Of a stretch of 25,090 nucleotides of DNA, positions 11,685 to 23,625 are shown one piece after another. The DNA is from Polaromonas sp. (GTDB taxonomy: Bacteria > Pseudomonadota > Gammaproteobacteria > Burkholderiales > Burkholderiaceae_C). Within the stretch, counting starts at the first letter, position 1; each line of letters opens with the position of its first letter. A model generated the notes under the pieces. It saw only the letters and a list, made by a program, of their open reading frames with translations, made no database searches and was not told the origin of the DNA. Both the position numbers and the translations under genes were made by a program. The stretch is from the NCBI GenBank assembly GCA_026786065.1, contig JAJAYS010000263.1, positions 1-25,090 on the forward strand, written 5' to 3'.

Positions 11685-11834
11685 GTCGCTGTCGGCCCCG
11701 ACCGTCAGCGGGCGTGGTCGTTGCGCGCCCGGGAGGCGCGTGCGACGATCTGGCGTTCGGCGCTGCCTGGTCAACTTCAAGTCTTTTTGTTCTTCATAAT
11801 TTCTGCTTCGAGACCATATGTTCCGGGCGTTAGA

Positions 11835-11853
11835 AGCTATTAATTTAATAGCT
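11835..11853. repeat. AT-rich palindrome (dispersed-type)
   Basis: AGCTATTAATTTAATAGCT, a near-perfect palindrome in the 329-base spacer between the Bug gene and malonyl-CoA synthetase. A second partner GAAGC...GCTTC (11833-11837 and 11859-11865) extends it. It may be a dispersed repeat or a transcript end. I see no gene in 11685-12013; the open frames there are short and lack family features. Confidence 0.5.
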
Positions 11854-12013
11854 ATTGAAAGCTTCGACTGAACCCGGGGGGCAATTCGGCTGCGTGGGTT
11901 CCGCCCGCAGCGAGCGGCGATCGGCGGCGGTCGGCAATGGTGTCGGCGCGTCTTTCTTGAAGCGGGTTTTTCGGATTCGCGCATCCATCGGCCGTGGCCT
12001 GTAATTTCTAAAC

Positions 12014-20032: not shown

Positions 20033-21352
20033 ATGCCCCAAACCCTCACCGAACAATTAAGCCGCGACCAGCAGATCTCTGCCCTCGAAAAAGACTGGGC
20101 CACAAACCCGCGCTGGAAAGGCATCAAGCGCGGCTACAGCGCTGCCGACGTCGTCCGCTTGCGTGGTTCCTTCCCGATCGAGCACACTTTGGCCCGTCGC
20201 GCCTCCGAGAAGCTGTGGGGCTTGCTGCACACTGAGCCTTATGTCAACACACTGGGCGCGCTGACCGGTGGCCAGGCGATGCAGCAGGTCAAGGCTGGCG
20301 TCAAGGCGATCTACCTGTCGGGCTGGCAGGTTGCTGCCGACAACAACTCTTATGCCTCGATGTACCCCGACCAGTCGCTCTATCCAGTTGATTCGGTGCC
20401 CAAGCTGGTCGAGACAATGAACAACACCTTCCGCCGTGCCGACGAGATTCAGCATGCCAAAGGCATCGACGCGGGCGATGACGCTTACATCGACTACTTC
20501 GCGCCCATCGTGGCCGACGCCGAAGCCGGTTTCGGCGGTGTGCTGAATGCCTTCGAATTGATGAAGGCCATGATCAAGGCTGGCGCCGGTGCGGTGCACT
20601 GGGAAGACCAGCTCGCATCAGTCAAAAAATGTGGCCACATGGGCGGCAAGGTCCTGCTGCCGACGCGCGAGTCCTGCCAGAAGTTGATCGCCGCGCGCAT
20701 GGCAGCCGATGTGTGCGGCGTGCCGACGCTCGTGATTGCCCGCACCGACGCCGAAGCGGCCGACCTGCTGACTTCCGACTACGACGAGAACGACAAGCCT
20801 TTCCTGACCGGCGAGCGTACGTCCGAAGGCTTTTACAAGACTCGCAAAGGCATGGACCAGGCCGTGGCCCGTGCCAACGCCTACGCGCACTACGCCGACT
20901 TGGTGTGGTGCGGAACCGGTACCCCCGATCTGGAGTTCGCCAGGAAATTTGCCGAAGCTGTGCACAAGATTCACCCCGGAAAAATGCTGGCTTACAACTG
21001 CTCGCCATCGTTCAACTGGAAGAAAAACCTCGACGACGCGACGATTGCAAAGTTCCAGCGCGAGCTGGGCGCGATGGGCTACAAGTACCAGTTCATCACG
21101 CTGGCCGGCATCCATTCGATGTGGTTCAACATGTTTGACCTGTCCCAGGACTATGTGAAGCGCGGCATGACCGCCTATGTCGAGAAAGTGCAGGAGCCCG
21201 AGTTTGCCGCGCGGGACCGTGGCTACACCTTTGTATCGCACCAGCAGGAAGTCGGCACCGGTTACTTTGATGAAGTCACGACCACGATTCAGGGTGGAAA
21301 GTCCAGCGTGACGGCGCTGACCGGCTCAACCGAAGAAGAGCAGTTTCACTAA
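20033..21352 (+). CDS. aceA: Isocitrate lyase
   Basis: A 439-residue enzyme splitting isocitrate into glyoxylate and succinate, the first glyoxylate-bypass step needed for growth on acetate and other C2 sources. The active-site motif KKCGHMGGK contains catalytic Cys200. Other family parts are VEDQ-like [37 protein letters not shown] and [18 protein letters not shown]. Length matches the short bacterial form (about 430). The ATG at 20033 is preceded by CAGGAGTAAG. The gene is monocistronic: a long AT-rich regulatory region stands before it and a terminator after it. With acs and the malonate genes it suggests a lifestyle using acetyl-CoA-forming substrates. No malate synthase is in the window. 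Confidence 0.97.
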
Positions 21353-21376
21353 AGCTTTCTCATCAGATCACAACCA

Positions 21377-21455
21377 GGCAAGGCCATACACGGAACCTTG
21401 CCAGGCCTTCAGCCCGGACTGCGCTTACCCGCCTATCCGGGCTTTTGTGTTTTTG
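21377..21455 (+). terminator. Terminator region after aceA
   Basis: Two hairpins follow the aceA stop. The first has arms GGCAAGG (21377-21383) and CCTTGCC (21396-21402). The second has eight-base arms AGCCCGGA (21411-21418) and TCCGGGCT (21436-21443) followed by TTTGTGTTTTT, a standard intrinsic terminator with a rather long loop. Confidence 0.8.
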
Positions 21456-21493
21456 GCTGGTTCGCGCTAATAGAGCGAGAACGCCGGCTACCG

Positions 21494-21499
21494 TAAAAT
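21494..21499 (+). promoter_or_regulatory. Candidate -10 box for the thrS leader
   Basis: TAAAAT (five of six to consensus) lies between the aceA terminator and the leader peptide. No convincing -35 box is at the right distance, so this is only a candidate; transcription starting near 21506 would give a leader of about 210 bases. Confidence 0.3.
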
Positions 21500-21547
21500 C
21501 CGGTGATGCATTCATCCAGCCAGGAAACAGGAAGGACGGTTCGGGTT

Positions 21548-21640
21548 ATGACACCGCGAACTACGACCTTGTCCGCCTTCTGGATTCATCCAAGGCTCCA
21601 GCCCGCATGCCGTGATGACTCCTTGCTAGAAGAACACTAG
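21548..21640 (+). CDS. Candidate thrS leader peptide (threonine attenuator)
   Basis: A 30-residue open frame, [20 protein letters not shown] followed by [10 protein letters not shown], ending TAG. Residues 2, 5, 6 and 7 are Thr and use all four Thr codons (ACA, ACT, ACG, ACC). AGGAAGGA (21529-21536) is a possible ribosome site 11 bases upstream. The frame sits after the aceA terminator and ends 20 bases before a strong intrinsic terminator, which itself ends about 30 bases before thrS. This is the classical architecture of ribosome-mediated attenuation, where shortage of charged tRNA-Thr would stall the ribosome early and let thrS be transcribed. I have not found a strong alternative antiterminator pairing. 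No homologue is known to me; this is inference from layout. Confidence 0.5.
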
Positions 21641-21643
21641 CAA
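21623..21643 (+). promoter_or_regulatory. Hairpin over the leader-peptide stop codon
   Basis: TTGCTAG (21623-21629) and CTAGCAA (21637-21643) form a perfect seven-base stem with a seven-base loop; the leader stop codon TAG is inside the right arm. A ribosome finishing the leader would melt it. CTTGCT at its left side can also pair with GGCAAG (21669-21674) at the base and loop of the terminator. Confidence 0.5.
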
Positions 21644-21660
21644 CAGTTGATCTCAACCAG

Positions 21661-21691
21661 AAAAGCGCGGCAAGTTCCGCGCTTTTGTTTT
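21661..21691 (+). terminator. Intrinsic terminator (attenuator) just before thrS
   Basis: Perfect ten-base stem AAAAGCGCGG / CCGCGCTTTT with a six-base CAAGTT loop, followed by GTTTTT. It ends 27 bases before the thrS start and after the aceA terminator, so its purpose must be to control thrS rather than to end aceA transcripts. Confidence 0.85.
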
Positions 21692-21717
21692 TCAGCCGCT
21701 TCAACAAAGACCTTGCC

Positions 21718-23625
21718 ATGATCCAAGTCACGCTGCCCGATGCTTCAGTCCGCGAATTCCCTCACGCCGTCACGGTGGCCGACGTAGCGGCGTCGATCGG
21801 TGCGGGGCTGGCCAAAGCCGCGCTGGGTGGAAAAGTCGATGGCAAGTTGGTGGACACCGCCTTCTTGATCGATAAAAACAGCGCCCTCGCCATCGTGACT
21901 GCGAAGGACCCCGACGGGCTGGAACTGATTCGCCATTCGACCGCGCATCTGCTGGCCTACGCCGTCAAGGAGCTGTTTCCGGATGCGCAGGTCACCATCG
22001 GACCGGTCATCGAAAACGGCTTTTTTTACGACTTCTCCTACAAGCGCCCGTTCACGCCGGACGACCTCGTCGCCATTGAAAAACGCATGAATGAGCTTGG
22101 TGCGAAGGACGAGGCGGTGGCGCGTCGTGTTCTACCGCGCGATAACGCGGTGGCGCATTTCAAAAGCATCGGCGAGCACTACAAAGCCGAAATCATTGCC
22201 AGCATTCCGGCCAATGAAGATGTGTCGCTGTACCGCGAAGGGAACTTTGAGGACCTTTGCCGGGGCCCGCATGTCCCAAGTACCGGCAAGCTCAAATTCT
22301 TCAAGCTGATGAAAGTGGCCGGTGCTTACTGGCGCGGCGACCACCGCAACGAAATGCTGCAACGCATTTACGGTACGGCCTGGGCTACAAAAGACGAATT
22401 GCAGCAGCACCTGACCATGATCGAAGAGGCGGAAAAGCGCGACCACCGCAAGCTCGGCAAAGAGCTCGACCTGTTCCACATTGACGACCACGCGCCAGGT
22501 CTGGTGTTCTGGCATCCGAAGGGCTGGACGCTGTGGCAGGGCGTTGAGCAGTACATGCGCAAGGTTTATCAAGACAACGGTTACCAGGAGGTGAAGGGGC
22601 CGCAGATCATCGACAAAACGCTGTGGGAGAAAACCGGTCACTGGGACAAATACCGCGACAACATGTTCACAACCGAGAGCGAAAAGCGTGAGTACGCGCT
22701 GAAGCCGATGAACTGCCCTGGGCACATTCTGATTTTCAAGCAGGGCATCAAGAGCTACCGGGATCTGCCGCTGCGTTATGGCGAATTCGGCCAGTGCCAC
22801 CGCAACGAACCCTCGGGGGGGCTTCACGGCATCATGCGGGTGCGCGGTTTCACGCAAGACGATGGCCACATTTTCTGCACCGAAGAACAGATTCTCAAAG
22901 AGTGCGTTGACTACACGACGCTGCTTCAGCAGGTCTATACCGACTTTGGCTTTAAAAACATCATTTACAAGGTGGCAACGCGGCCGGAAGCACGAATCGG
23001 ATCCGACGCGAGTTGGGACAAGGCCGAGAACGCGCTGATGGAGAGCCTGCGGGCCTCGGGTTGCGAGTTCGAGATTTCACCCGGCGACGGCGCGTTCTAT
23101 GGCCCGAAGATTGAATACACGCTAAAGGACGCGATCGGTCGTCAGTGGCAATGCGGCACGATGCAGGTTGATTTTTCGATGCCCGAGCGGCTTGATGCCG
23201 AATACGTTGGCGAAGACGGTGCGCGCCACCGGCCCGTCATGCTGCATCGTGCCATCGTCGGAAGCCTGGAGCGCTTCATCGGCATCCTGATCGAAGAACA
23301 TGCGGGCGCTTTGCCTACTTGGCTGGCGCCAGTGCAGGTTTCGGTGCTGACGATTACCGACGCGCAGGCAGATTACGCCCGAGAGGTGGCTAAAACGCTG
23401 AAAAATCAAGGGCTTAGAGTGAACCTGGATCTGCGCAACGAAAAGATTACGTATAAAATACGAGAGCATTCTTTGCAAAAGCTGCCCTACATCCTTGTCG
23501 TTGGCGACAAAGAGAAAGCTGCCGGGGCGGTTGCAGTTCGAGCACGCGGCAACAAAGATTTCGGTCCCATGCCGCTCGAAGCGTTTGCAAAACAGATTAC
23601 GTCCGATATTGCGTTGAAGGCATAA
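21718..23625 (+). CDS. thrS: Threonyl-tRNA synthetase
   Basis: A 635-residue class II synthetase that charges tRNA-Thr. Domains in order: N-terminal TGS domain ([15 protein letters not shown], about 1-62), editing domain with [16 protein letters not shown] and YCRGPHVP-like [11 protein letters not shown] (to about 225), catalytic core with motif 2 [20 protein letters not shown] and [10 protein letters not shown], zinc-site residues Cys in MNCPGH and His in the core, motif 3 [20 protein letters not shown], and the anticodon-binding domain (from about 535) with [20 protein letters not shown]. Length is standard. The ATG at 21718 gives the family start; ribosome site is weak (AAAGA), in keeping with control upstream. 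It heads thrS-infC-rpmI-rplT, a conserved order. Confidence 0.98.

Follow-up and report, generated by a model that had tools for sequence, protein, structure and literature searches.

A candidate ribosome-mediated threonine attenuator ahead of thrS in Polaromonas and other Burkholderiales

Introduction

How is thrS, the gene for threonyl-tRNA synthetase (ThrRS), controlled in a contig of Polaromonas sp.? The 25,090-nucleotide stretch analysed here (GenBank assembly GCA_026786065.1, contig JAJAYS010000263.1; hereafter the window, with all coordinates on its forward strand) carries at 21718..23625 (+) an open frame that we take to be thrS, in line with an earlier reading of the bare sequence, the initial annotation. 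Its 635-residue protein was matched in 60 of 61 related genomes (cut-off 0.001), some of these matches being short or weak. Upstream of thrS lie a small threonine-rich frame and an intrinsic terminator, from which the initial annotation proposed a threonine attenuator. This proposal fared well: we put the probability that the leader is a ribosome-mediated transcription attenuator of thrS, sensing charged tRNA-Thr, at about 0.85. The start segment, the Thr codons and the terminator are conserved, and the alternative pairings on which such a switch would depend exceed those of shuffled sequences in most clusters of leaders.

The proposed switch uses four segments: A, the control codons; B, near the ancestral stop codon; and C and D, the two terminator arms. 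A ribosome on the MTPRT(T)(T) leader would wait for Thr-tRNA at codons 5–7, covering A and leaving B free. Free B would pair with C before D is made, so that the terminator would be prevented and thrS transcribed. With ample Thr-tRNA the ribosome would reach the stop codon and cover B; C would then pair with D and transcription would stop. Most likely, therefore, cells make more ThrRS when charged Thr-tRNA runs short. Conservation and pairing were observed directly in the sequences; from them we infer that the leader is translated, that ribosomes stall on it, that transcription in the cell either terminates or reads through, and that the system responds to threonine.

Leader frame and terminator in the window

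The leader frame occupies 21548..21640 (+) and consists of ATG, 29 further codons and a stop. Re-reading of the window sequence bore out the initial annotation in both its 30-codon length and its composition, with Thr at positions 2, 5, 6 and 7 encoded by ACA, ACT, ACG and ACC, that is, by all four Thr codons. The leader stop codon lies 77 bases upstream of thrS, whose ATG is at 21718. Between the two stands the perfect 10-bp intrinsic terminator already described, 20 bases past the leader stop (stem 21661-21670/21677-21686, loop CAAGTT, tail GTTTTT). In the terminator scan its 5′ arm, segment C, is AAAAGCGCGG (21661..21670, +) and its 3′ arm with the T-run, segment D, is CCGCGCTTTTGTTTTT (21677..21692, +), with a hairpin energy of -14.3 kcal/mol.

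Thr richness alone is weak evidence, because at least four Thr in codons 2–7 occur in 2 of the 871 short frames (8–40 codons, both strands) of the whole window. The terminator hairpin by itself is also unremarkable, since the 701 scanned bases hold two terminator-like sites and their shuffles 1.0 ± 1.0. Folding energy of the whole leader is equally ordinary (z -1.40; 18 of 200 shuffles fold equally well). The leader is judged real because a segment over its start codon recurs upstream of thrS elsewhere.

Conservation across Burkholderiales

This conserved core, GGTTATGACACCGCGAAC (21544..21561, +), was matched with up to two mismatches in 87 genomes in a scan of 399 Burkholderiales genomes. 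Places with none or one mismatch numbered 46 (31 + 15), and each of them is found upstream of thrS at a distance of no more than 400 bases. Among the 19 two-mismatch places retrieved, seven precede thrS, and the flanking DNA of the other 12 contains no thrS, as expected of chance hits. A 17-mer scan of named genomes gave a similar picture: among the matches listed, 114 of 119 stretches lie upstream of thrS, and the other five have no thrS in the available DNA, the pieces of L166, L175 and L177 ending shortly past the motif. The 80 titled records among these 119 listed matches include Burkholderia, Paraburkholderia, Cupriavidus, Massilia, Janthinobacterium, Variovorax, Acidovorax, Comamonas, Rhodoferax, Polaromonas and Roseateles. 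In a class-wide draw of 274 genomes, five had a match with at most one mismatch; three were exact, all in the family of the window itself. The Thr leader element thus looks characteristic of Burkholderiales, and may be present elsewhere. The other two of these five, one-mismatch 17-mer matches, fall in families outside the order (G696:C43:5843-5859 and G443:C38:8067-8083), and a metagenome record titled Alphaproteobacteria (L114) has the motif upstream of thrS.

Both scans select for exact conservation of the start segment, and its invariance therefore cannot be judged from them; positions 6 onward are unaffected by this choice. We examined 174 leaders and kept the 165 unique ones in which the finder reported a terminator. 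Those dropped were L019, L030, L064 and L067 from the first set (a terminator being visible by eye in L030, L064 and L067) and, likewise, L113, L141, L153, L168 and L192 from the second. An intrinsic terminator between leader and gene is accordingly present in the window and was found in 165 of 174 leaders.

Among the 165 leaders, Thr stands at position 2 in 163, position 5 in 164, position 6 in 105 and position 7 in 75, and declines later. Position 6 uses all four synonymous codons (ACG 43, ACA 29, ACC 19 and ACT 14 among the 105 leaders), so Thr is conserved there as an amino acid. Weighted over 24 clusters, Thr at this position has a frequency of 0.53; the two alternative frames give 0.00 and 0.05. 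These would be the control codons expected for the regulated amino acid. An in-frame stop follows after 10–22 codons in 164 of 165 leaders, against 30 codons in the window, and the peptide has 10–17 residues in 148 of the 165. The alignment of many thrS upstream regions that the initial annotation had suggested as a check thus came out in its favour, start segment, Thr codons and terminator being conserved across many families.

A second, thrS-anchored survey covered 62 genomes of 50 families, and the upstream stretches of 60 were examined. It yielded Thr leaders of other wording before a similar terminator: MLKTDTTTLMISG and MQRTSTKTITYLG in family f5, MFKRTTTTRISR in f28, MQLNRTTTTS and MNILRTATLM in f14, MTLRTCTKH in f6, MTPLTCTGHN and MTPLTYTAGEFFQP in f3, MPRTSTFGRFHHRRG in f39 and MSFRTRMTTDA in f49. 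By reading, 12 of the 50 families have, before the terminator, a leader that starts with ATG and contains two or more Thr codons (f1, f3, f5, f6, f8, f10, f14, f23, f28, f39, f47 and f49). Family f20 has a TTG-started candidate and f24 a leader with one Thr only; in f32 and f35 the leader is present in other genomes and absent from the surveyed one. In most of the other families the terminator stands alone or both elements are missing.

Otherwise different leaders share a CGA-ACN (Arg-Thr) codon pair, which recurs in L228, L232, L236, L240, L264, L269 and L275 as well as in the main group; L266 (MLKTDTTT) is without it. Upstream of thrS in L287 (f16) is a seven-codon frame, MTGRTQV, with GCCGAACAC; a terminator was not found at this locus, which is possibly a remnant or of a different type.

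Predicted alternative pairings in the leader

Segment A (CCGCGAACTAC, 21554..21564, +, within codons 3–6) is the partner of segment B (GCATGCCGTG, 21605..21614, +), the predicted 5′ strand of the antiterminator, which was located by folding 21579-21676. Across leaders, B:C pairing beats dinucleotide shuffles in 21 of 24 clusters (mean z -1.27) and A:B pairing in 22 of 24 (mean z -0.95). When partners were swapped between clusters, B:C gave z -2.6 (10 of 2000 permutations), compared with z -0.8 for a reversed-B control and z -6.8 for C:D as positive control. In a register test on the leaders ending in TAG, the position of B was fixed by the stop codon and that of C by the start of the terminator loop. 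The expected register, in which CTAG faces the loop CTNG, gave 453 of 744 pairs versus 208–331 in eight slid registers; this register was chosen after inspection of some of the same sequences and was not blind. This test took 93 of the 97 TAG-stop leaders, stops beyond base 60 being left out. In some leaders with a divergent A, the best B has changed to fit it, as in CGCGAAC/GTTCGCG (L047), CGCTGAC/GTCGGCG (L070) and CCGCC/GGCGG (L101 and L029).

The sequestration of C by upstream sequence was then compared between ribosome positions. With a ribosome at codon 5 it was 0.84 versus 0.73 in shuffles (higher in 133 of 165 leaders), with a ribosome at the stop codon 0.58 versus 0.66 (69 of 165), and without a ribosome 0.81 versus 0.78 (110 of 165). 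By cluster, the stalled state exceeds shuffles in 21 of 24 (p 6.5e-4) and the stalled-minus-stop difference in 19 of 24 (p 1e-3); these p-values are approximate because the clusters are uneven, with 1 to 33 members, and still mutually related. The computed pairings support an antiterminator that would exclude the terminator and be freed by stalling.

In the window itself, folding with a ribosome at codon 7 pairs 21608-21614 (TGCCGTG) with 21666-21672 (CGCGGCA) and so blocks the terminator arm. Moving the ribosome to codon 5 gives this arm a different partner, the sequence from 21573 onwards. C is sequestered with a score of 0.82 in the stalled state, 0.83 in the free state and 0.07 when the ribosome stands at the stop codon, the last being low compared with 0.43 in shuffles. 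If D is added to the fold, the terminator is favoured at equilibrium even in the stalled state, so that read-through must depend on B:C forming first. Known attenuators likewise depend on the antiterminator forming first.

The pairings that the initial annotation had offered for the antiterminator did not stand. CTTGCT (21622-21627) with GGCAAG (21669-21674) is improbable as such, since most of CTTGCT is taken up by the stop-codon hairpin when the leader is folded, and the A:C pairing of CCGCG with CGCGG was unsupported in the swap test (z +0.45).

Evidence against attenuation and rival explanations

Several observations weigh against an attenuator of this kind. Some lineages have just two Thr codons (MTPRTRSLPR, MTPRTCFFLR). 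The register fit is uneven, with at least six of eight pairs in 43 of 93 leaders and at most four in 45, and cluster L041 fits another register better. The protector helix A:B, which would free the terminator when the leader is not translated, is ahead of shuffles in 22 of 24 clusters; the swap test did not support it (z -0.8), A being almost constant, and it is weak in the window (L001, z +0.7). The A variant of L070 also occurs in L069 and L092-L094, and in these four leaders A:B pairing is no better than in shuffles (z -0.2 to +0.4). Without a ribosome, the sequestration of C is close to that of shuffles and the difference lacks significance (14 of 24 clusters). The same holds for the stop state taken by itself (9 of 24 clusters), and the stalled state of the window is ordinary (0.82 versus 0.74 in shuffles). 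Finally, the initial annotation had named, as an observation that would speak against it, related genomes that lack the frame and keep the terminator; this occurs in part, in 11 of the 13 same-genus loci without the frame.

Because the ribosome-free and stop states are not significant, the equilibrium model supports just part of the cycle: with significance confined to the stalled state and the stalled-minus-stop difference, it backs the contrast between stalling and finishing but not termination without translation. Termination in the absence of a ribosome, brought about by A:B, is thereby weakened as a possibility, being not significant in folding.

Other readings of the same leader were weighed against attenuation. 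The RNA could be a binding site for ThrRS or another protein, comparable to the E. coli thrS operator, whose arms resemble tRNA-Thr and are bound by ThrRS close to the thrS start, with the 18-mer as recognition element and the terminator responding. Such a site would fit a start-codon segment conserved base for base beyond the need of the peptide, and some of the families have CTNGT as terminator loop, which by eye is like a tRNA-Thr anticodon loop. The loop varies, however (CAAGTT, CATCCA, CCCT, CTTG), and a protein site would not require synonymous Thr codons at position 6 or differently worded Thr peptides; we consider protein binding very unlikely. An anticodon-like loop as a shared feature was also rejected, as it is not conserved across leaders.

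Slightly less credible still is that the terminator just ends upstream transcription, of aceA or tRNA-Val, and that the small frame is incidental. Lineages with a terminator and no leader (L009, L014, L237) and the tRNA-Val found at 10 of 14 scanned loci would agree with this. In the window, though, an inverted repeat and T-run belonging to aceA itself can be made out by eye, and aceA is separated from the leader by a -10-like TAAAAT; moreover, start segment and Thr codons are conserved in more than 100 loci, and B and C are matched between partners. We give the smallest chance to an action of the frame on thrS translation or RNA decay, as an upstream frame or by coupling, without termination. 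Short upstream frames can act in this way, but the window has a terminator within the 77 bases separating leader stop and thrS, and the finder gave one in nearly all leaders examined. Attenuation by a threonine-sensing ribosome remains our preferred reading.

Same-genus loci with and without the leader

Upstream DNA was available for 27 same-genus thrS loci, the window included (L024, without upstream DNA, was excluded). The frame is present in 13, one (L023) has ATA for ATG, and 13 lack it. In L002, L008, L009, L011-L014, L017, L018, L025 and L027 the frame is gone and the GCGCGG/CCGCGC terminator kept. This absence looks like loss and not refutation, because the leader is widely conserved elsewhere. 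In most of these 11 loci the retained terminator stands close behind a TAAAAT-like box, and in several CCGGCTT lies just past that box and might, by eye, pair with a terminator arm. L023 has, besides ATA at the leader start, a changed codon 5 (ITPRI...) and a kept terminator; it may be a decaying or differently started copy.

Probable promoter, possible ribosome site and local features

A possible ribosome-binding site, AGGAAGG (21529..21535, +), lies within AAACAGGAAGG, invariant in six of six aligned sequences. Its presence upholds the possible ribosome site of the initial annotation, whereas its spacing to the ATG, 12 bases, is long. With start codon and candidate ribosome site, the short leader frame is predicted to be translated. 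Farther upstream, TAAAAT (21494..21499, +) is the probable -10 element of the thrS promoter (CGTAAAAT invariant in six of six aligned sequences), which would place the transcription start at about 21506. A scan of the thrS upstream stretch found no sigma-70 consensus promoter, and no good -35 stands beside TAAAAT.

The unusual length of the window's frame appears to be local. Codon 18 is CAG (21599..21601, +), where four of five aligned relatives (L003, L005, L006 and L028) end with TAG; the fifth, L010, has AGG in these columns and, shifted by a one-base gap, reads past. The 30 codons therefore represent a 17-codon frame that has been lengthened locally, and the peptide tail is recent.

The hairpin over the stop codon (21623..21643, +) was confirmed as a perfect 7-bp stem, and is probably not part of the switch. 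By reading, it aligns with stretches of L003, L005 and L006 that fit the palindrome TAGCTANNNANTNNATAGC with at most one mismatch. At the same threshold this palindrome has 76 + 71 = 147 strand matches in the window's genome (G000), where one copy can count on both strands, versus 0 for the reversed pattern. It is a dispersed repeat resembling repetitive extragenic palindromic (REP) elements, with examples in the window at 848-866 and 11834-11854. The stop-codon hairpin would derive from this repeat, its copy in the window having diverged.

Upstream, aceA ends at 21352. The separate aceA terminator of the initial annotation is plausible by eye, as an inverted repeat and T-run at 21411-21443 could end aceA; the window terminator scan, which took loops of up to 8 only, did not list it. 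Of the 14 scanned thrS-upstream loci, tRNA-Val (GAC) occurs in L059, L063, L080, L086-L088, L224, L228, L232 and L237, close to thrS or its leader, and may therefore be co-transcribed in those 10 loci.

Significance

If the attenuator is real, a large bacterial group would adjust thrS to demand by a route other than the T-box or the E. coli operator, and thrS would join the genes under peptide-leader attenuation in Proteobacteria. Strong conservation permits annotation in more than 100 genomes at once. The frozen start segment, the reworded Thr peptides of sister families and the absence of the leader from about half of the genus are natural variants for tests of attenuator evolution. An additional role of the start region is conceivable though unlikely: the fixed bases of GTTATGACACCGCGAACT, CGA-ACN included, might slow the ribosome near the start, through the codons, the nascent peptide or the fold of the RNA. 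Were this so, the leader would read initiation and Thr-tRNA together, and the sensing unit would be a frozen RNA-and-peptide word instead of a run of control codons.

Comparison with known systems

T-box RNAs sense tRNA charging by binding the tRNA directly, and control a terminator. The Burkholderiales leader is like them in that tRNA charging would be sensed before thrS by way of a terminator, and unlike them in its leader peptide, which a T-box does not have. At gathering score the leader of the window has no Rfam match; a T-box in particular (Stem I, specifier loop and T-box bulge) was discarded, with no match at gathering score in the window and none among the four matches at E<=10 in 21300-21800. 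An article by Lopatovskaya et al. (2010, Mol Biol, PubMed 20198868), cited in PMC4833913, reportedly treats attenuation of amino-acid and aminoacyl-tRNA operons and may list thrS, in which case it would have priority. We did not find a thrS attenuator of Betaproteobacteria described in the open-licence PubMed Central literature, and the main text of PMC2965389 does not mention thrS. The mechanism is classical and already known; its instance at Burkholderiales thrS was not found in the literature searched.

A T-box precedes thrS in Firmicutes (PMC2494555). In E. coli, a translational operator exerts feedback on thrS through the 5′ leader (PMC8058203); Burkholderiales thrS, unlike it, is preceded by a peptide frame and a terminator, both conserved. 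For thrS of Streptomyces lividans, a threonine-dependent leader peptide, thrL (MKRVRPFLETTPGFVPAR), has been proposed from RNA-seq, with a leaderless start and, in the authors' view, no clear intrinsic terminator (PMC8079986). The regulated gene is the same, whereas the organism is an Actinobacterium and the peptide unrelated in sequence.

The closest likeness is to the attenuators of E. coli trp, his, thr and pheST, some features of which are given in PMC1183508. As in these textbook systems, a short leader frame carries codons of the regulated amino acid and is followed by an intrinsic terminator; the antiterminator includes the terminator 5′ arm, and a ribosome finishing at the stop codon would cover the antiterminator strand. 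Unlike them, the leader described here has its control codons directly behind the start (2, 5, 6 and 7), a nearly invariant start segment, and thrS as the gene it precedes.
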